DNA of 64,000 bases, taken from contig JAUZOO010000016.1 in NCBI GenBank assembly GCA_030706405.1, positions 1-64,000 of the forward strand. The letters are read 5' to 3'. This document shows, piece after piece, positions 1 through 11,018 of this stretch; position 1 is the first letter of the stretch, and every line of letters begins with the position of its first letter. This DNA is from Bacteroidota bacterium. GTDB lineage: Bacteria > Bacteroidota > Bacteroidia > Bacteroidales > JAAUTT01. The translations under genes were made by a program, and so were the position numbers. The notes beneath the pieces were generated by a model. It did no database searches. It saw only the letters and a list, made by a program, of their open reading frames with translations, and was not told the DNA's origin.

Positions 1-3000
1 AACTCCCCTGCGATTTGTTGTGATTTGCTTTCAGATTGTATCTTTGAAATACTGGCTTACACCCAAAGATCATAACCTTTAAATCCGTCCACAGTTGTGA
101 TTTGCTTTCAGATTGTATCTTTGAAATACTGGCTTACACCATATTTTTCATAGCTGCGGTTGCTTTTGCAGTTGTGATTTGCTTTCAGATTGTATCTTTG
201 AAATACTGGCTTACACCTGTAGTTTTTGAATCGTTCTATCGCCGCCCGTTGTGATTTGCTTTCAGATTGTATCTTTGAAATACTGGCTTACACCACATAT
301 CAGTTATTTAATGACCCGAAGCATGTTGTGATTTGCTTTCAGATTGTATCTTTGAAATACTGGCTTACACCATCAGTAAAATATTCAGTGTATATCAATC
401 CGTTGTGATTTGCTTTCAGATTGTATCTTTGAAATACTGGCTTACACCAAGGACGACCCTAACGAAATGAAGGTTTTCGTTGTGATTTGCTTTCAGATTG
501 TATCTTTGAAATACTGGCTTACACCAATAAATCAAACTACAAGTTATCAATTTAAGTTGTGATTTGCTTTCAGATTGTATCTTTGAAATACTGGCTTACA
601 CCCCATCAACGCATTATTGGGCGTTTACAGAAGTTGTGATTTGCTTTCAGATTGTATCTTTGAAATACTGGCTTACACCCAAATGTTGCGCCAGTTTTAA
701 GGTTTACTGGTTGTGATTTGCTTTCAGATTGTATCTTTGAAATACTGGCTTACACCGCTTGGATTGAAGATTACCGAAGCCTTTATGTTGTGATTTGCTT
801 TCAGATTGTATCTTTGAAATACTGGCTTACACCACGGAGGGTTAAACGGGTTTGATGACCGTAGTTGTGATTTGCTTTCAGATTGTATCTTTGAAATACT
901 GGCTTACACCAGTGCTTTATAATATCCAAAAGAACCAGCCGTTGTGATTTGCTTTCAGATTGTATCTTTGAAATACTGGCTTACACCTAAAGCTCAGACA
1001 GGTATCGACGGTAAACGGTTGTGATTTGCTTTCAGATTGTATCTTTGAAATACTGGCTTACACCTCTTATGATGTTGATGATTTTCTGTATTGTGTTGTG
1101 ATTTGCTTTCAGATTGTATCTTTGAAATACTGGCTTACACCCTAAATGCAAGTAATATATTCACTTTATTAGTTGTGATTTGCTTTCAGATTGTATCTTT
1201 GAAATACTGGCTTACACCAAAACCTCCAGCGAGGAAACGCGGCACGTTGTTGTGATTTGCTTTCAGATTGTATCTTTGAAATACTGGCTTACACCTTCAG
1301 CACCTTTGTTTCCGTCGGTGTTATCGTTGTGATTTGCTTTCAGATTGTATCTTTGAAATACTGGCTTACACCTAAATCTAGATATTTATAGATGTTATTT
1401 TAGTTGTGATTTGCTTTCAGATTGTATCTTTGAAATACTGGCTTACACCATTTTTTTTGTACATTCGTACTTTAAACCAGTTGTGATTTGCTTTCAGATT
1501 GTATCTTTGAAATACTGGCTTACACCAGGTCTCTGATGAGAGGCACGGGCACATTAGTTGTGATTTGCTTTCAGATTGTATCTTTGAAATACTGGCTTAC
1601 ACCCACCTGCGTCAATATACTTGCTTCCGGAGGGTTGTGATTTGCTTTCAGATTGTATCTTTGAAATACTGGCTTACACCCTTTGCGTCCTCGTGTAATT
1701 GGCCATATTCGTTGTGATTTGCTTTCAGATTGTATCTTTGAAATACTGGCTTACACCTAATCCTAAAATTTCAGCATCAGCAAATTTGTTGTGATTTGCT
1801 TTCAGATTGTATCTTTGAAATACTGGCTTACACCTTAGTTGCTGTTTGCCCTTCATGTAAAAGCGTTGTGATTTGCTTTCAGATTGTATCTTTGAAATAC
1901 TGGCTTACACCATTGCTTACAATCACGATTATTTAGGTCTAGTTGTGATTTGCTTTCAGATTGTATCTTTGAAATACTGGCTTACACCTAATGAAACAAA
2001 CGAAGATTGGTTAAATTTGTTGTGATTTGCTTTCAGATTGTATCTTTGAAATACTGGCTTACACCAATCACAAAGTAGTATTGGAGCAGATGCTAGTTGT
2101 GATTTGCTTTCAGATTGTATCTTTGAAATACTGGCTTACACCAATTTATAGTATGATAATGATTTTTGCGTAGTTGTGATTTGCTTTCAGATTGTATCTT
2201 TGAAATACTGGCTTACACCTACCGCTAATAACTATTCGAATATTATCCCGTTGTGATTTGCTTTCAGATTGTATCTTTGAAATACTGGCTTACACCCAAG
2301 AAATAGTACGACAACTGCATTTAAAAGTTGTGATTTGCTTTCAGATTGTATCTTTGAAATACTGGCTTACACCATCCGCCAGATGTTGATTATTATCAAA
2401 CAAGTTGTGATTTGCTTTCAGATTGTATCTTTGAAATACTGGCTTACACCTTGATAAATTTATCATTGCTGTTTGTGATAGTTGTGATTTGCTTTCAGAT
2501 TGTATCTTTGAAATACTGGCTTACACCGCACGGCCGAAAAGGACTGGAAGAGGCTATGTTGTGAGTTGCTTTCAGATTGTATCTTTGAAATACTGGCTTA
2601 CACCATTTAACTTCAGAACAAATATATTCTATTCGTTGTGATTTGCTTTCAGATTGTATCTTTGAAATACTGGCTTACACCAAATGCAAATGTTGGAAGC
2701 AAGCCACCATAGTTGTGATTTGATTTCAGATTGTATCTTTGAAATACTGGCTTACACCGATGTAATCACTCACATTTTCAGGTCGCTCGTTGTGATTTGC
2801 TTTCAGATTGTATCTTTGAAATACTGGCTTACACCTTTGGAATAATAGAAGCACTACGCCTAACAGTTGTGATTTGCTTTCAGATTGTATCTTTGAAATA
2901 CTGGCTTACACCTCGACGCGTGAACGCCAAATACTATTTTCAGTTGTGATTTGCTTTCAGATTGTATCTTTGAAATACTGGCTTACACCCCGTCTTTATT

Positions 3001-3066
3001 TATCAATCCTTTGAAATTAGTTGTGATTTGCTTTCAGATTGTATCTTTGAAATACTGGCTTACACC
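1..3066 (+). CRISPR. Type II-C CRISPR array; 40 repeats of 47 bp (GTTGTGATTTGCTTTCAGATTGTATCTTTGAAATACTGGCTTACACC) with 39 full 30-nt spacers; continues off the left edge (1-16 is a partial spacer)
   Basis: Repeat starts at 17, 94, 171 ... 3020 with constant period 77. crRNA orientation is + because the 5' half of the repeat pairs with the tracr anti-repeat at 10942-10964. Variant repeats at 2558 (GTTGTGAG...) and 2712 (...TTGATTTC...). Confidence 0.98.
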
Positions 3067-3191: not shown

Positions 3192-3527
<336 letters not shown>

Positions 3528-4439
3528 CTACATTTCCGGATAAATTACCTTTCGGCTCTCGCCTAAAAAACATTTAGCCAGAGAGGCTGCCGATTGTTGT
3601 ATGGCTAACATTAGCGGACTCGACTGTCCGTTGATCTGAACATCGATAACCGGAATGCTTAGCAATTGAGCTTTCAGTTCGCGGGTAAGTTCGTTTGCCT
3701 GTGGATTTTTGTCAACAATAGCCAAAACCTCTTTATCAACATAAGGACGGTATGGCTCCATAATATCGTCGGCCAGGCAATAGGCATTGTACCTGTTGCG
3801 ATGAAAAATGCCCAATGTAACCAGTAGCCCCGAACCGGCAAGGGCCCGGGCGGTGATTGCCCGTAAAATGGCATATCCGTAGTTGAGCAGGTTGTTTGGA
3901 GAAGGGCCATCGGGGTCGCGCGAAAAAAACATATCTTCAGGAAAAAGATTCTGCCAGTAATATGCTGCCGCCCGGGCTTCGTGATTTGCGGCATCGCCCG
4001 ACTTTACACTCGATGCCCAATGAAGCATATTGTCGTGTTTTATCTTTTTAGACTTAAGTATCGATGCCTGGTTTAATATTTTAGCCGTTATGGTTTGTGC
4101 CCAAAGTTGCTTTTTTAACGGCACACTAGCCTGCAACTGAGCCTCAAAGCGCTCCTGTTGCAAAGTGTTTCCATCGAGGTTCAGCATCATCCCCGTAGGC
4201 ATGTGTTTATCGTCGCTGGTAATGATGGCACAATTATTTTCGAGTAACCGGTGCATCAGGTGATGTGTTATGGTTATTTGCGAATGATCGAGTATTACAA
4301 CCCCAATATCTTCGATAGGGATTGTTGTTGTCCGGTCTTTTTCGGGGAGCATGCCGGCTCCGGGGATTTCAATCTGCAACTGATCGTTGAGACAACGCAG
4401 GTAAGCAGGGTTTCCAAAATAGAGAGTGCGTTTTATCAT
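3528..4439 (-). CDS. cas1: CRISPR-associated endonuclease Cas1 (type II)
   Basis: 303 aa; MIKRTLYFGNPAYLRCLNDQL..., SGDAANHEARAAAYYWQNLF and SPNNLLNYGYAILRA motifs. Confidence 0.96.
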   Translation of the reverse strand: MIKRTLYFGNPAYLRCLNDQLQIEIPGAGMLPEKDRTTTIPIEDIGVVILDHSQITITHHLMHRLLENNCAIITSDDKHMPTGMMLNLDGNTLQQERFEAQLQASVPLKKQLWAQTITAKILNQASILKSKKIKHDNMLHWASSVKSGDAANHEARAAAYYWQNLFPEDMFFSRDPDGPSPNNLLNYGYAILRAITARALAGSGLLVTLGIFHRNRYNAYCLADDIMEPYRPYVDKEVLAIVDKNPQANELTRELKAQLLSIPVIDVQINGQSSPLMLAIQQSAASLAKCFLGESRKVIYPEM

Positions 4440-5186: not shown

Positions 5187-5915
5187 ATGAGTGTATTACA
5201 CAAAATCAAAGCATGGTTGTACGACAACCCGCTTACCGAAGATCCCAACGACTTTGTAGCCAGGGTTAGTGCCGAACGCAGCCTTTCGGTACGCGAAATT
5301 TGCGAATCGGCTGTTAAACGTGGTGGTGCCGATGTTTCTGCGGCATCAATGGAACATAGCCTCAACCTTTTTCACAAAGAGATGGCTTACCTGCTGTGCG
5401 ACGGTTATTCGGTAAACACCGAGTATTACCAGGCCTCCCCGCTGATTACGGGCGTATTTAACAGTCCCAAAGAAACATTCGACCCGGAGAATCACTCCAT
5501 TTCATTCGCATTTAGACAGGGAGCTTTGTTGCGCAACGAATTATCGTCGGTTTCGGTCGATATTTTGGGCGTTGCCGAAAACGGCTCTTATATTGCCCAG
5601 GTGGTTGATGTAAAAACAGGCTCGGTAAACGATATTATAACCCCTGGCCGAAACCTGAAGGTTAAAGGTTCTAAAATTAAAGTAACTGGTGAGCACGAAG
5701 ATGTTGGTATTTTCTTTATCAACCAATCGAATCTACAATCTACCAAAGTTGACCTCTCCGATATTGTTACCAACAAGCCCTCGGAGCTGATCATTGTAGT
5801 TCCAACCCTAACAGCTGGGTCGTATAAACTACAGGTGGCAACACAGTTTACCAACAGCCTTCTTTTAAAGGAACCCAGGTTTATTACTTCGGATAAAACT
5901 CTAACGGTTTCGTAA
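5187..5915 (+). CDS. HU-like DNA-binding N-terminal domain plus DUF4469-like C-terminal domain protein
   Basis: 242 aa; MSVLHKIKAWLYDNPLTEDPNDFVARVSAERSLSVREICESAVKRGGADVS resembles the HU-like/DUF4469 family widespread in Bacteroidota; lies opposite in strand between cas1 and cas9. Confidence 0.7.
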   Translation: MSVLHKIKAWLYDNPLTEDPNDFVARVSAERSLSVREICESAVKRGGADVSAASMEHSLNLFHKEMAYLLCDGYSVNTEYYQASPLITGVFNSPKETFDPENHSISFAFRQGALLRNELSSVSVDILGVAENGSYIAQVVDVKTGSVNDIITPGRNLKVKGSKIKVTGEHEDVGIFFINQSNLQSTKVDLSDIVTNKPSELIIVVPTLTAGSYKLQVATQFTNSLLLKEPRFITSDKTLTVS

Positions 5916-5943
5916 TTATATTAACGCCTGTTAGCGGGAGGCA

Positions 5944-6017
5944 CTACAACCCGTTAGTGTCACCCACTAACGGGCGTTAGCGTCACCCACTAACGTGTTG
6001 TAGTGGGTGACGCTAAA
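5944..6017. repeat. Compound inverted-repeat element between the passenger gene and cas9 (possible bidirectional terminator)
   Basis: CCCGTTAGTG/CACTAACGGG (5951-5975) and TTAGCGTCACCCACTA/TAGTGGGTGACGCTAA (5978-5993/6002-6017), plus alternative pairing ACTACAACcCGTTAGTG/CACTAACGtGTTGTAGT. Confidence 0.8.
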
Positions 6018-6069: not shown

Positions 6070-9000
6070 CTAATTTTGGTATCCTTTTACACCAACAATT
6101 TCTCCCAGTCGATTTACTTTCAATTTCCAGCAACAATCTTTTATCATAACACCTTCGATAGATCTCTCCATTTTATTTAATGCTGAAAACTCCACTTTGT
6201 TGACAATTGTATTAGCTATATCATGACGGACAAAGAAACATTGTGAACCAGAGGAGCTAACAGCTTTATATATGTTATTCACTTGTTCTTTTGTTAAATT
6301 TCTAAAATTAACTAAATATGGTTTCTCCAATTCTTCAGGCGTTGGAACATAAACAAGATCATTAGGGGAAAGATAAAATAGCAATTGATATTCTTTTAAA
6401 TTTTTAGGATCGATATAAGTTAGAGCTACCGATGATAAACCTTGTTTTTGGTTTTCAATCACAATATTTAAAGGAATAGTATCACAGATTCGTTTTCCAT
6501 TTTCATCGGCATAGATGGCAAAAAACAAATTAGTTCCTTTAGCAGCTTCTACAAACTTTGATTTTTTGCTGCCTGTAACACCGACATTGAACTTTTTACC
6601 TTTGGGTTCGTAGGTACGCACTTTAGTAATGGGTTGATGAAATTTATTTCCATTAAGTGCTAATATATTTTCATTAAGATCGTCGATGCCATCGGAAGAA
6701 AAGGCCAATGACTCGGAAGGTATTATTTTCCCGCTTTCATCTTTTTGATTTTGGAATTTATCCTGATTGAGGTGCTTTAACAGTATTTTTTGAATGCCGG
6801 TATCGGTAATACTTTCTATCCGTTGTGCATTAAAACTGTCATCAAGGTTCACTCTTGAGGCTACATTATCACTATCGTAATAATAGATTTCAACTTTGGA
6901 CACGTCTTTTTCATTCCATTTATTCTCATGGCCTTTAAAGTATTTTTGAATCTTCTTTTTGTCATCACCATTACTGATAAGCTCTTTAATTTTGGCTCTT
7001 AATGATTTATCGACTATCATATCGACATTATCAATGGCTACAGAAAGCAGTACTACTTTTTTAAACCGCAAAGTAATACTTCCGGAAACGGTATCCTTAT
7101 GCATTGGTTTACGTATTGCCCAACTATCGCCTTTGGTTTGGGTGACCAATATTTTTTTGAGATTACCTTCCTCATCTTTTTGCCACTTCTGATATTTATT
7201 GACGGTTTTATTGATGACCCTCAAATTTTGTTTAAAACTAACGACAGTTGACAATAGCGCCTCGCGACTATCTTGGGTAAAAGTATCCCAAGGTTTTATA
7301 AACTCCTTTGCTACTGAAATGGTTTTACTAATTTGTTTTCCATTTACCGTTCTTACAATTTGTACATTTTCAATGCGCCTCAATTTCTTTCGTAAATCAA
7401 AACGGATTTCTTTTTTATCAGGCCGGGCATATTCGTTATTCAAATAATTAATATGGTTACGTGTGGCGCAGGCTATCACAAGAGCATCCATAGCATGATG
7501 GCGATGGTCAATACGTTTTTTGCTAAAGCCTTTTTGTAACTCCAACGGAATTTCGGTCTGAAACACCTTTTTCCCAGCTTTGTTAGTCCATTGCCCAAAG
7601 TTATTACTATTGGTAAGCGAATTTAATCGTTCAAAACGAGGGGTAATTATTTCGTTCCAAATATCGTTTAATCCCCAATCTTGTTTTAAAATGGTCGTAA
7701 TACTACCATTGCTTGATAATACATTCTTTGAGGTGCTTTCTTGTTCGTCATTCTCGCGTACAATATTTGATAACAATCCTTTTACAACTTTACTAATATA
7801 ACGGCTATCGTTCATTTGACGGGCAATGAATGAATCCGGAATGTCTTCCATCAGAAGCTTTTTCATTTTGCTTCTATTGCCGGCAAAACTCTTTTTCACA
7901 TGTTCTTCGTAAGCATTGAGTGTCAATATGGATACTTCTTTTCCAAAACTTAGCTCAATCTTTTTACCGCTGTTGTTTTTTATGTATTCGTAAGCTGTGC
8001 AATTGTCTTTATCGGCATTTACCTCAGCTTCGCATATAACTTTATTGCTCAGCGAATCGTCAAAATATCGGGATTGGGGAATGATATGTTCTATCTGATA
8101 GGCTGGCGTAAAAAGTTTACTCAGAGGAATCATTTCGCCGGTATAAGGAGAGCAGTACCCTTGGTCCAGCCAAACTTTGTAACGGATTAATTCTGATTTG
8201 GAAGGCTGGGCGCTCTTTTTTATTTTCAAGATTTCGTCAGGGATTTCGTCAATTGAATTTAATACGCCTTCTTCATATATTTTAAGTATTTCCTGTTGGC
8301 TTGGCGAATAAGGACGAACATTTTCAATCGAATCATCATTAAGCATTTCGGACAGCAGGGCTTTGATACGGAGGTTCGTATTTTCATTCTCTGTAACTAT
8401 ATCGGACATTGCCTTGCGCTTATCTGCCGGATTTTTCATTTCGCGCCCCAGTTCAATATGTATTTCGCTAAAGAAATCAGGCTCACTATTGCCGTATTGT
8501 TTCCATATATCGCTTACCACCCGTAACGTTTCGGTGATTACCTGTTCTACAATTGGATTGCGGAGAGAATGTTGTTTGAATTCTTCGCGAAGGTACAGTT
8601 CAATATCTGTTGGAGTCCCCCACTTTTTAATATCTCCGGCTTCAGAATGCCTATCATAAACGATATAACAAGCTAACCAAACAGGGATATTTTGAAAATC
8701 TTCTATCGTATTAAAGTTAATTGCTTTTTCGCGCACTTGGGTTCTTATCTTTTCATCGACTTCTCCATTTAGAATTTTTAAAATTCTTTCTTTCGTATTA
8801 ACATCAATGTTGGCTTCATTCCAATATTTTCCGCGCCGCATCAGCGACAATAACTTTTTAATAGCCTTAGCCGAATAAGAACCGTAATCTTTTTTAAATG
8901 GAGGAAACTTTTTAAAATTATCGACAAAATCGTCGCCCAGATTGTTTTTGTCGGCAAAGGTTTTCAATGCTTTTACAATGTCTACTTTGTCTTCAACCGA

Positions 9001-10677
9001 ATATAAAATATGCCATAATGAGATTGTTTTCTCTTCGGTTAAAAAGCCTTCGGGAACACTGTTCACTTTGGATAAGCGATTTAGAATTTGAGCCCGGGTT
9101 TCATTGCATGGATAAATCTTATCCTCAACATAGTTCCAACGGTACTTTTCGGCATCTTTTTTAAGATTAAAAGCTGGATACTTCAAAAAAGCCTTTTGGT
9201 CAATTTCTTTCCTTTCGTTAAGCCAATCGTATAATATAGTCCAGTCTTCTTCTGTTTTTAAGAAATCTTTAGTAACATTTACATCTGTTTCGACTTTCCC
9301 ATTCACCACTTTTTCTTTGGCATAAATCTTAAGGTTTTGAAGAAACTGCCATAATCTATATTCCTGAAATAATGGATGTGATTTGGCGATACATTTTAGT
9401 GGCTCTTCTTCTAATTTTCCTTCTTTCTTAAACCTGCGAACCTCGTACTGGCAATTGCTGATGAGCGATTTTTTGCTTTTCAGAGGGCGTTGATAAAAAA
9501 TAATATCATTTACAAACAGATGTATAAAATCTTTATTGCCGATACTCGCCCTGTGGCTGTCATTGTATTCATAAAGTTCCTCTAAGCAAGCTTTATATAA
9601 TTGGGGGTCGTTTAGCTCAGGATGAAATTCTTTTTGTTTTTCAAGAATGAGAATTAATTCTTCTTTGTAGAATTTACGTTCAATTGTCCTTACCAGTTTA
9701 CCTTTTATTTTCTGGTGTGGATTTTGAAGCAACGTGTCGTAAATGTAGCAGCCTACTGTTTTATGACTTTGGTCTATATCTGCTTCGGTTTTTTTCTTGA
9801 CTAATGTCCAGTCGTTTTCTTGAGGAGCCCTGAACGAACGTTTTTCTTTTCCTTCTTTATCCGTTTTCACATTTCCGTTTTCATCAATTTCGGTAGTGAC
9901 AATAAAATCTTTGGTCTTGCCCACCCAATCTAATGGAGTTTTGCTGTTACGTCGATAAATCCATCCATTTTCGAGTATAACATTGTACCATATTCCATCT
10001 TTACCCTTTCTATCGCCACTGTCTACAACCTCAATCACTTTTAAAGAGTAAAATTCAACTAGTCTGTTCTTACTCTCATTATCTTCTTCATCTTCTCCCC
10101 GTAATTGATAATAACCTCTTTTCTGATTAAAATTTAATAACAACCACGCGAGTTCTCCTTTTTCGATTTTAGCAGATAACGCCTTTTTGCGTAAGTAATA
10201 GATAGTCCAATCGTAAGGTATCTTTTTATCATTCTCAAAAAGTTGGGGCTGACTTTCTCTGAAATCGTTGACCATTTCCATAAACGATGTAAAAAAAATG
10301 AACTCGCCTTTTTCTGTTTCCGGATTATTTCGATAGGTTAATTTCGGTTCAGAGTCGTCCAAAAACTGTCCCGGATTCTTATCAAAATCAATAGAACTAC
10401 TATAATGAGAAGGAAGAAAGCCCAAAATATTTAAAATCCTGAGTAATCGTTCGCGTCGCAGAAGATTTCGCTCCCGTAGTCGTCGGATTCCTCTAAATCC
10501 AGTTCTTTCTGCTGTCTGTGAAATAGAGTTACCACGGTCAAACTCTCCTAAAATATCCTGAGACATTGGAATAATTCTGCTTCCCAATCCTAGTATTTCT
10601 TTTTTTTCGTCAGTTTCATTTACCAGCGCCCAACCAATTGAGTTAGTTCCTAAATCAAGCCCAAGAGTTATCTTCAT
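6070..10677 (-). CDS. cas9: CRISPR-associated endonuclease Cas9, type II-C, 1535 aa
   Basis: RuvC-I MKITLGLDLGTNSIGWALV; Arg-rich bridge helix RGIRRLRERNLLRRERLLRIL; RuvC-II SEIHIELGREMKNPADKR; HNH YQIEHIIPQSRYFDDSLSNKVICEAEVNADKDN; RuvC-III DHRHHAMDALVIACA. No csn2 or cas4 nearby. Confidence 0.98.
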   Translation of the reverse strand: MKITLGLDLGTNSIGWALVNETDEKKEILGLGSRIIPMSQDILGEFDRGNSISQTAERTGFRGIRRLRERNLLRRERLLRILNILGFLPSHYSSSIDFDKNPGQFLDDSEPKLTYRNNPETEKGEFIFFTSFMEMVNDFRESQPQLFENDKKIPYDWTIYYLRKKALSAKIEKGELAWLLLNFNQKRGYYQLRGEDEEDNESKNRLVEFYSLKVIEVVDSGDRKGKDGIWYNVILENGWIYRRNSKTPLDWVGKTKDFIVTTEIDENGNVKTDKEGKEKRSFRAPQENDWTLVKKKTEADIDQSHKTVGCYIYDTLLQNPHQKIKGKLVRTIERKFYKEELILILEKQKEFHPELNDPQLYKACLEELYEYNDSHRASIGNKDFIHLFVNDIIFYQRPLKSKKSLISNCQYEVRRFKKEGKLEEEPLKCIAKSHPLFQEYRLWQFLQNLKIYAKEKVVNGKVETDVNVTKDFLKTEEDWTILYDWLNERKEIDQKAFLKYPAFNLKKDAEKYRWNYVEDKIYPCNETRAQILNRLSKVNSVPEGFLTEEKTISLWHILYSVEDKVDIVKALKTFADKNNLGDDFVDNFKKFPPFKKDYGSYSAKAIKKLLSLMRRGKYWNEANIDVNTKERILKILNGEVDEKIRTQVREKAINFNTIEDFQNIPVWLACYIVYDRHSEAGDIKKWGTPTDIELYLREEFKQHSLRNPIVEQVITETLRVVSDIWKQYGNSEPDFFSEIHIELGREMKNPADKRKAMSDIVTENENTNLRIKALLSEMLNDDSIENVRPYSPSQQEILKIYEEGVLNSIDEIPDEILKIKKSAQPSKSELIRYKVWLDQGYCSPYTGEMIPLSKLFTPAYQIEHIIPQSRYFDDSLSNKVICEAEVNADKDNCTAYEYIKNNSGKKIELSFGKEVSILTLNAYEEHVKKSFAGNRSKMKKLLMEDIPDSFIARQMNDSRYISKVVKGLLSNIVRENDEQESTSKNVLSSNGSITTILKQDWGLNDIWNEIITPRFERLNSLTNSNNFGQWTNKAGKKVFQTEIPLELQKGFSKKRIDHRHHAMDALVIACATRNHINYLNNEYARPDKKEIRFDLRKKLRRIENVQIVRTVNGKQISKTISVAKEFIKPWDTFTQDSREALLSTVVSFKQNLRVINKTVNKYQKWQKDEEGNLKKILVTQTKGDSWAIRKPMHKDTVSGSITLRFKKVVLLSVAIDNVDMIVDKSLRAKIKELISNGDDKKKIQKYFKGHENKWNEKDVSKVEIYYYDSDNVASRVNLDDSFNAQRIESITDTGIQKILLKHLNQDKFQNQKDESGKIIPSESLAFSSDGIDDLNENILALNGNKFHQPITKVRTYEPKGKKFNVGVTGSKKSKFVEAAKGTNLFFAIYADENGKRICDTIPLNIVIENQKQGLSSVALTYIDPKNLKEYQLLFYLSPNDLVYVPTPEELEKPYLVNFRNLTKEQVNNIYKAVSSSGSQCFFVRHDIANTIVNKVEFSALNKMERSIEGVMIKDCCWKLKVNRLGEIVGVKGYQN

Positions 10678-10690
10678 GATATATTATTTT

Positions 10691-10712
10691 TTTATTTCAT
10701 TATACTGTACAA
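10691..10712 (-). promoter_or_regulatory. Candidate Cas9 self-target: 13-bp protospacer (10700-10712, - strand TTGTACAGTATAA) plus 3' flank TGAAATAAA (10691-10699)
   Basis: Perfect reverse complement of 10862-10874, the 13 nt immediately 5' of the degenerate repeat; overlaps the predicted cas9 -7/TSS region. Confidence 0.75.
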
Positions 10713-10742
10713 TTATAATAAAAATCTATATATTTGTATCAA
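10710..10742 (-). promoter_or_regulatory. Predicted cas9 promoter (TTG-N22-TATAATTG, minus strand)
   Basis: Minus-strand -33-like TTG at 10742-10740 and -7-like TATAATTG at 10717-10710 (7/8 of TAnnTTTG); cas9 ATG at 10677. Confidence 0.5.
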
Positions 10743-10874
10743 TTAAAATATGGAATAAATATATGTTCCAAACAGCCGTATCTGTTAAGAAGAACTCCAA
10801 AAACATATCTGAGAGTTGCACTTTTTTTTAATTAAACACCATGATTATATTGTATCATCTTTTGTACAGTATAA

Positions 10875-10905
10875 GTTGTGATTTGCTTCAAATTGTACTT
10901 CACAC
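10875..10905 (+). repeat. Degenerate, internally shortened CRISPR repeat GTTGTGATTTGCTTCAAATTGTACTTCACAC
   Basis: First 14 nt identical to the array repeat; middle TCTTTGAAATACTGG missing; end CTTCACAC resembles CTTACACC. Confidence 0.88.
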
Positions 10906-10929
10906 ATGGTGTTTTTCTTTTTATTTAAT

Positions 10930-10937
10930 TATATTTG
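10930..10937 (+). promoter_or_regulatory. -7 element of the predicted short-form tracrRNA promoter (TATATTTG)
   Basis: Exact match to TAnnTTTG about 5 nt before the anti-repeat; no clear TTG at -33 spacing. Confidence 0.5.
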
Positions 10938-10941
10938 CTTC

Positions 10942-11018
10942 TACAATTTGAAGCAAATCACAATAAGGATTATTCCGTTGTGAAAACATTTAAGGCGGCG
11001 CAAGTCGCCTTTTCTTTT
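10942..11018 (+). ncRNA. tracrRNA (short form), type II-C
   Basis: Anti-repeat TACAATTTGAAGCAAATCACAAT pairs with the repeat 5' half; AAGGATTATTCCGTTGTGAAAACATT tail; AAGGCGgcgcaagtCGCCTTTT terminator at 10992-11013. Confidence 0.93.
10992..11018 (+). terminator. tracrRNA terminator
   Basis: AAGGCG-GCGCAAGT-CGCCTT followed by TTCTTTT. Confidence 0.85.

Follow-up and report, generated by a model that had tools for sequence, protein, structure and literature searches.

In a stretch of Bacteroidota DNA, the region between cas9 and the gene for the trans-activating CRISPR (clustered regularly interspaced short palindromic repeats) RNA, or tracrRNA, holds what reads as a miniature CRISPR RNA (mini-crRNA) with a 13-nt guide identical to a site in the cas9 promoter, and very probably this mini-crRNA directs Cas9 to its own promoter and thereby places cas9 under negative feedback. 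The stretch, hereafter the window, comprises 64,000 nt of a 4.93-Mb genome, and its CRISPR-Cas system is of type II-C (cas9-cas1-cas2, a tracrRNA and repeat-internal promoters). Taken together, guides matching the promoter flush with the repeat, an excess of the protospacer-adjacent motif (PAM) NNRAA at the matched sites, and covariation of guide and target between related loci lend strong support, as far as sequence can, to RNA-guided Cas9 autorepression in type II-C. The elements on which the argument turns are these:

10862 to 10874, plus strand: the 13-nt guide TTGTACAGTATAA, flush with the 5' end of the repeat and covarying with the promoter target across loci
10700 to 10712, minus strand: the target TTGTACAGTATAA, a protospacer identical in sequence to the guide; it lies in the cas9 promoter at a distance of 22 nt from the ATG
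10695 to 10699, minus strand: the PAM 5'-TGAAA-3' (NNRAA) beside the target, where the minus strand reads TGAAATAAAA
10875 to 10905, plus strand: the degenerate crRNA repeat of the mini-crRNA, of which 10876-10897 is perfectly complementary to the anti-repeat
10942 to 10964, plus strand: the tracrRNA anti-repeat, adjacent to a core conserved in 271 loci
10958 to 11018, plus strand: the tracrRNA body with its conserved core and a terminator-like site (terminator stem 10992-11011)

The guide is the exact reverse complement of 10700-10712 and thus carries the sequence of the cas9-sense strand. A flush match of 13 nt arose in 0 of 5000 Markov shuffles of the intergenic region, the longest shuffled match being 10 nt, and the last 12 nt of the guide followed by NNAAA occur at one site in the genome, which is the cas9 promoter. 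The repeat, truncated and degenerate when compared with the array repeat, stands alone between cas9 and the tracrRNA; its repeat-like portion (10875-10892) is the sole off-array copy in the genome, and 10876-10897 forms a perfect 22-bp inverted repeat with 10942-10963. An earlier sequence-only reading had described a degenerate repeat in crRNA orientation upstream of the anti-repeat, the perfect pairing of the two over 22 bp, and, directly before the repeat, the reverse complement of 10700-10712. All of its statements about the sequence hold and their coordinates are right, and its guide logic (crRNA orientation, a flush guide, a target over the cas9 promoter and a match too short for normal cleavage) is upheld as well. 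It overlooked the PAM, the additional structured element located between the promoters, and the sense orientation of the guide, which excludes antisense pairing with the cas9 mRNA.

Only the copy of the 13-mer at cas9 adjoins a PAM; like a spacer in a CRISPR array, the guide copy runs directly into the repeat, whose GTTGTG does not constitute a PAM. Among 16 target copies from the window and its relatives, downstream positions 3-6 are A, A, A and T in 15, 15, 12 and 12 copies, respectively, and NNRAA adjoins the match in 10 of 15 loci, where 1.5 would be expected (P = 1.5e-7, with the loci taken as independent). This is the PAM listed for CbCas9 (PMC12302564), the type II-C enzyme of Chryseobacterium that is also the nearest solved relative of the window Cas9 (8iyq, 1649 bits). 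For Fp2Cas9 of Flavobacterium psychrophilum the PAM is NNAAAG (PMC10309648), and for Flavobacterium columnare it is NNNNNTAAA (PMC8092290). The window site TGAAATAAA is compatible with NNNNNTAAA too, and NNRAA was preferred because CbCas9 is the closer enzyme and because NNRAA fits more of the loci. Phage protospacers for spacers of the window array, sought in order to derive the PAM, yielded no useful match in 50,697 phage records.

Bacteroidota loci for comparison were gathered by Cas9 homology and, separately, by the conserved core of the tracrRNA within the order to which the window belongs (395 genomes); further loci came from the genus Chryseobacterium (176 genomes), from the families of loci L007 and L021, and from metagenomes by means of a gapped DNA pattern. 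The resulting set held 271 distinct tracrRNA cores, 222 of them with cas9 nearby. A lone repeat accompanied by cas9 was present at 15 of the 271 loci (the window, L007, L021 from Niastella, L043, L044, L049, L162, L167, L177, L180, L193, L203, L235, L240 and L281), which between them carry 13 different guides. These loci were chosen by their lone repeat and not by a guide match; the exception is a group of eight metagenome matches, two of them used, that came from the repeat-plus-tracr pattern. Examples of the guides are:

L007: ATGTAGAGTAG
L021: ATGAGGGGTTG
L043: TGTACAGAGTTA
L177: ATCAGGTATCT
L180: AGTTGATAACT
L203: TGTTCAATGAGT
L235: ATATTTGTAGAGT

At 13 of the 15 loci, the 10-13 nt of guide that adjoin the repeat recur without mismatch in the cas9 promoter of the same locus; the matching site invariably has cas9 sense and is located between cas9 and the lone repeat. 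Shuffled sequences attained the observed match length in 0 of 5000 trials for 12 loci and in 10 of 5000 for L193. The other two loci each depart from identity by one G/A difference, which would leave a G-T wobble with the template strand: L044 matches over 11-12 nt, and L162 over at least 17 nt with the difference at the last position. Between loci, on the other hand, a guide matches the promoter of another locus over a mean of 4.2 nt, and matches of at least 8 nt are limited to similar guides (the L043/L049/L240/L281 family, and L235 with L007). Thus, guide and cas9-promoter target co-vary between loci, as the sequence-only reading had predicted for related II-C loci; no relative among the 15 has kept the repeat and lost the complementarity. 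In the close relatives L049 and L240, the promoter target has been duplicated in tandem together with a structured element, designated X and described below, and the one guide matches either target copy, each of which is flanked by an NNRAA PAM.

These observations suggest the following course of events. The locus would give rise to a short crRNA-like RNA composed of a guide of some 11-13 nt and the tracr-pairing part of the repeat, which would be loaded into Cas9 with tracrRNA, the latter being either shared in trans or fused upon transcriptional read-through. The Cas9 so programmed has intact catalytic residues (LGLDLGTNSIGW, IEHIIPQS at 862 and HHAMD) and would be guided to the target, which adjoins NNRAA and overlies the promoter and start-site region of cas9. 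Because the R-loop formed there would be too short for cleavage, Cas9 would merely block the promoter, thus closing a negative feedback loop on its own gene; binding without cleavage is described for such short matches in type II-A (PMC8616872) and is expected of 10-13 nt here. The site is also where the upstream part of a divergent, plus-strand promoter should be. Most loci have a perfect divergent -7 box at a distance of 10-20 nt from the target, so that bound Cas9 should cover the upstream part of that promoter as well and the guide's own transcript may come under the same control. The boxes and the predicted fold in the window are:

10729 to 10736, plus strand: TATATTTG, at 16 nt from the target, the predicted -7 box (6/6 TAnnTTTG) of a promoter that points away from cas9
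10930 to 10937, plus strand: TATATTTG, the predicted -7 box (6/6 TAnnTTTG) of the ordinary tracrRNA promoter, just before the anti-repeat
10834 to 10914, plus strand: a predicted outer stem AAACACCAUG/CAUGGUGUUU around the guide hairpin and the repeat, followed by a U-run (fold of -27.1 kcal/mol, z -5.1)

On the cas9 strand itself, the sequence-only reading had placed the target over the -7 element. The target does lie over the promoter; the window box, however, is imperfect, the cas9 strand of the window promoter containing no 6/6 TAnnTTTG and only a TATAATTG-like -7 element. In several relatives a perfect TAnnTTTG box of the cas9 promoter abuts the target, which begins right at the box.

The guide may act either as a separate RNA or as part of a long tracrRNA isoform, in which guide, repeat, anti-repeat and tail would fold in cis into a natural single-guide RNA, as in II-A tracr-L. 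In the window, repeat and anti-repeat are perfectly complementary over 22 bp, the segment 10875-11018 adopts a single-guide-like fold (-46.3 kcal/mol, z -7.9), and there is no simple terminator after the repeat, which makes a fused form possible there; L021 and L044 likewise have none. Yet in 11 of the 15 loci a strong hairpin with a T-run (-9 to -18 kcal/mol), starting 16-25 nt into the repeat, would end transcription before the tracrRNA, and a twelfth, L162, has a weak terminator after its repeat. A terminator directly behind a half repeat argues for a stand-alone mini-crRNA that acts with tracrRNA in trans. In addition, the tracrRNA has a TAnnTTTG box of its own ahead of the anti-repeat in the window and at most of the loci, and the distance from guide to tracrRNA ranges from 83 to 574 nt. 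Even in the window, 10834-10918 folds strongly into a 10-bp outer stem with a U-run after it, a possible structured terminator that could end a stand-alone RNA. On sequence grounds we therefore favor the stand-alone form for the family of loci and consider a strictly fused single guide a reasonable but lesser prospect; for the window, both forms are possible. The term natural single-guide RNA, used by the sequence-only reading, may thus still fit the window but does not serve as a general rule, and the single transcript ending in the tracrRNA tail on which it relied was assumed, in the face of the separate box at 10930-10937 and the intervening terminators of most relatives.

Of the explanations that dispense with a guide altogether, the first is that the shared 13-mer represents a transcription-factor site or another element common to two divergent promoters. 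Both copies do lie near promoter regions, many guides begin near a TAnnTTTG-like box, and the long match of L162 could be the product of a promoter duplication. However, the 15 loci carry 13 different sequences, and most loci show little similarity to one another. Identity ends precisely where the repeat begins, and only the cas9 copy has a PAM beside it, the other being followed by a repeat able to pair with the anti-repeat. Covariation, flushness and PAM speak against an operator model, and we regard this explanation as very unlikely. Marginally less likely still is a decayed array remnant, that is, a relic repeat with a chance or self-derived spacer and no present function. The feature is indeed rare and patchy, and its repeat is truncated and degenerate, but covariation, PAM and terminators are maintained across distant loci, L049 and L240 keep two target copies identical to one guide, and in Chryseobacterium the conserved companion element X occurs only at mini-crRNA loci. 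Finally, antisense control of the cas9 mRNA by the guide-bearing RNA, which its predicted divergent transcription beside cas9 might bring to mind, has a negligible chance of being correct and is contradicted by orientation: at every locus the guide has the sense of the cas9 mRNA, with antisense matches of 3-5 nt, so that it could not pair with that mRNA and only the DNA template strand is available to it, as for a Cas9 guide.

Autorepression by a mini-crRNA must nevertheless be weighed against several observations that do not sit easily with it. The PAM is off-consensus at five of the 15 loci (L021, L162, L180, L193 and L235). None of the 15 has a 6/6 promoter box directly before the guide, where 11 have 5/6 boxes only. 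Single degenerate repeats also occur, with no confirmed target, on short or cas9-less contigs (L163, L165/L169), and the cassette as a whole is infrequent, its carriers being dispersed across the Cas9 tree.

The DNA separating the divergent box from the guide encodes element X, a new structured RNA element consisting of three hairpins with constant loops (GACG, GUCCAAA and CCCAAG), several copies of which are closed by an outer stem. Its stems show two-sided changes in 14 of 18 pairs in a 10-row alignment. Copies and the corresponding region of the window are located as follows:

L049: 6669-6929
L043: 6825-6930
L180: 1211-1313
L235: 2029-2131
window, about 10737 to 10829, plus strand: region equivalent to element X by fold and by position, with three hairpins and U8 at its end

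A model of element X finds it in 9 of the 176 Chryseobacterium genomes, in every case at a mini-crRNA locus and nowhere else in those genomes. In the window and in the other loci from outside Chryseobacterium the model scores weakly; shape and position are similar there, and homology is putative. Rfam contains no match for the L049 copy, and for the window region it returned no real match, the tracrRNA model scoring far below its cut-off. A tRNA, which the GUCCAAA loop might suggest, was considered and rejected, as ARAGORN finds none. The obvious options are that element X is part of the mini-crRNA transcript or that it is a control element of the latter. In many loci, the 60 nt before the repeat are predicted to form a hairpin whose 3' arm contains the guide. 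The folding energy of this guide hairpin is significant in 8 of the 15 loci, the window not being among them (P = 0.08).

The presence of the cassette is reflected in spacing, the distance from cas9 to tracrRNA in Chryseobacterium being 350-568 bp at the nine cassette loci versus 18-125 bp at 77 loci without it. No clustering of the cassette was seen when it was mapped on a tree built from 211 Cas9 N-termini (14 changes versus a shuffled mean of 14.7). This distribution fits repeated loss or transfer of the cassette, with guide and target travelling together, and independent origins may also account for it. It is conceivable, and we put it forward tentatively, that we are dealing with a transferable Bacteroidota II-C cassette, in which a divergent transcript made up of element X, a hairpin-held guide, a half repeat and a terminator would program Cas9 to repress both the cas9 and the cassette promoter at a single operator, with element X making the switch conditional, for example through release or processing of the guide.

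The closest functional parallel is tracr-L of the type II-A system of Streptococcus pyogenes, a natural single-guide RNA (Workman et al. 2021) as described in PMC8616872 and PMC12216829. Like the mini-crRNA, it is encoded beside the tracrRNA and has a short guide (about 11 nt) for a PAM-adjacent target at the cas promoter, where nuclease-competent Cas9 is expected to bind without cutting, giving negative feedback on cas9. A short flush guide matching the cas promoter and a PAM beside the target, which characterize tracr-L, are both present in the window. The differences are that the present loci belong to type II-C of Bacteroidota, that the RNA predicted for most of them is separate from the tracrRNA, a mini-crRNA ended by a terminator of its own rather than a long fusion, and that they combine an NNRAA PAM with a cas9-sense target over the start site and an accompanying element X. 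According to a review, tracr-L is not found in any other subtype (PMC8616872). In architecture, the mini-crRNA rather recalls the cas-regulating RNAs (CreRs) derived from mini-CRISPRs in types I-B, I-E and V-A (PMC13131331, PMC12737573, PMC12948488). These, too, are stand-alone crRNA-like RNAs with limited complementarity to a cas promoter by which the effector represses its own genes, a form that we read here from the sequence of most relatives; repression by CreRs depends on Cas and is lifted by competing crRNAs or anti-CRISPRs. In our case, however, Cas9 and a separate tracrRNA take the place of those effectors, and the unit is a half repeat with a terminator rather than a mini-CRISPR. CreRs are listed for types I and V-A only (PMC13131331, PMC12737573), and the CreR literature searched makes no mention of one in type II. 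Hence, in function the mini-crRNA resembles the II-A tracr-L and in architecture the CreRs of types I and V-A.

In the type II-B system of Francisella novicida, the scaRNA, a small RNA encoded near the cas9 locus, redirects Cas9 to the regulation of other genes by short complementarity. The target here, in contrast, is the cas9 promoter itself. The scaRNAs are named in PMC13187072. A further comparison is offered by the safeguards against extraneous crRNAs from II-C arrays (Feussner et al. 2025; PMC12080349), which likewise involve type II-C, RNAs from the first repeat, guide-trapping hairpins and terminators; our guide hairpins recall the trapping hairpins reported for those unwanted crRNAs. 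Such safeguards suppress unwanted array crRNAs, however, whereas the present unit sits by the cas9 promoter and has a guide whose match to a target is maintained. Neither a cas9 promoter nor autoregulation is mentioned there, as judged by a term search, and a like search of the 2025 paper on classification (PMC12669027) was equally negative. No earlier report of Cas9 autorepression in type II-C was found in the literature searched, which did not include the original tracr-L paper (Workman 2021) or Workman 2024.

If correct, our reading adds type II-C to the systems in which a Cas effector represses itself under RNA guidance, and suggests that the same negative feedback has been reached by different CRISPR types via different RNA layouts. 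If the feedback holds, its removal should raise II-C immunity in these bacteria, as is reported for II-A. With their natural pairs of guide and target (10-13 nt, PAM class known), and in some cases two targets, the loci would moreover offer a system in which to measure binding without cutting by a II-C Cas9.

At the CRISPR-Cas locus of the window, cas9, cas1, cas2 and one HU-like gene are the only genes recognized; neither csn2 nor cas4 is among them. With no csn2 recognized and a Cas9 nearest to CbCas9 of II-C, the locus does not qualify as a II-A system. Its remaining parts are:

1 to 3066, plus strand: CRISPR array with 47-nt repeats containing an internal TATCTTTG promoter, continued on a second contig
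3192 to 3527, minus strand: cas2 (TIGR01573)
3528 to 4439, minus strand: cas1, type II (TIGR03639)
6070 to 10677, minus strand: cas9, type II-C, 1535 amino acids (TIGR01865, E 5e-119; HNH_4, RuvC_III)

The HU-like gene (5187-5915) lies between cas1 and cas9 on the opposite strand and encodes a DNA-binding protein with a DUF4469 domain, and nested inverted repeats (CACCCACTAACG units) occupy 5930-6016, directly past the cas9 stop codon. Elsewhere, L241 contains at 1250-1450 a mini-crRNA-like unit (GATTAAATCG/GTTGTGACTTGC) that points towards cas9; it has a flush 10-nt match with the PAM TAAAC and lies upstream of a second tracrRNA tail that is devoid of a proper anti-repeat. L169 (with a minus-strand core at 5278) and L165 contain a unit of repeat and tracrRNA that resembles a single-guide RNA. 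No cas9 was found on the 14.5-kb locus, and the unit adjoins genes that, judged by eye, resemble those of a phage-tail-like particle (tail-sheath-like and AAA ATPase proteins).
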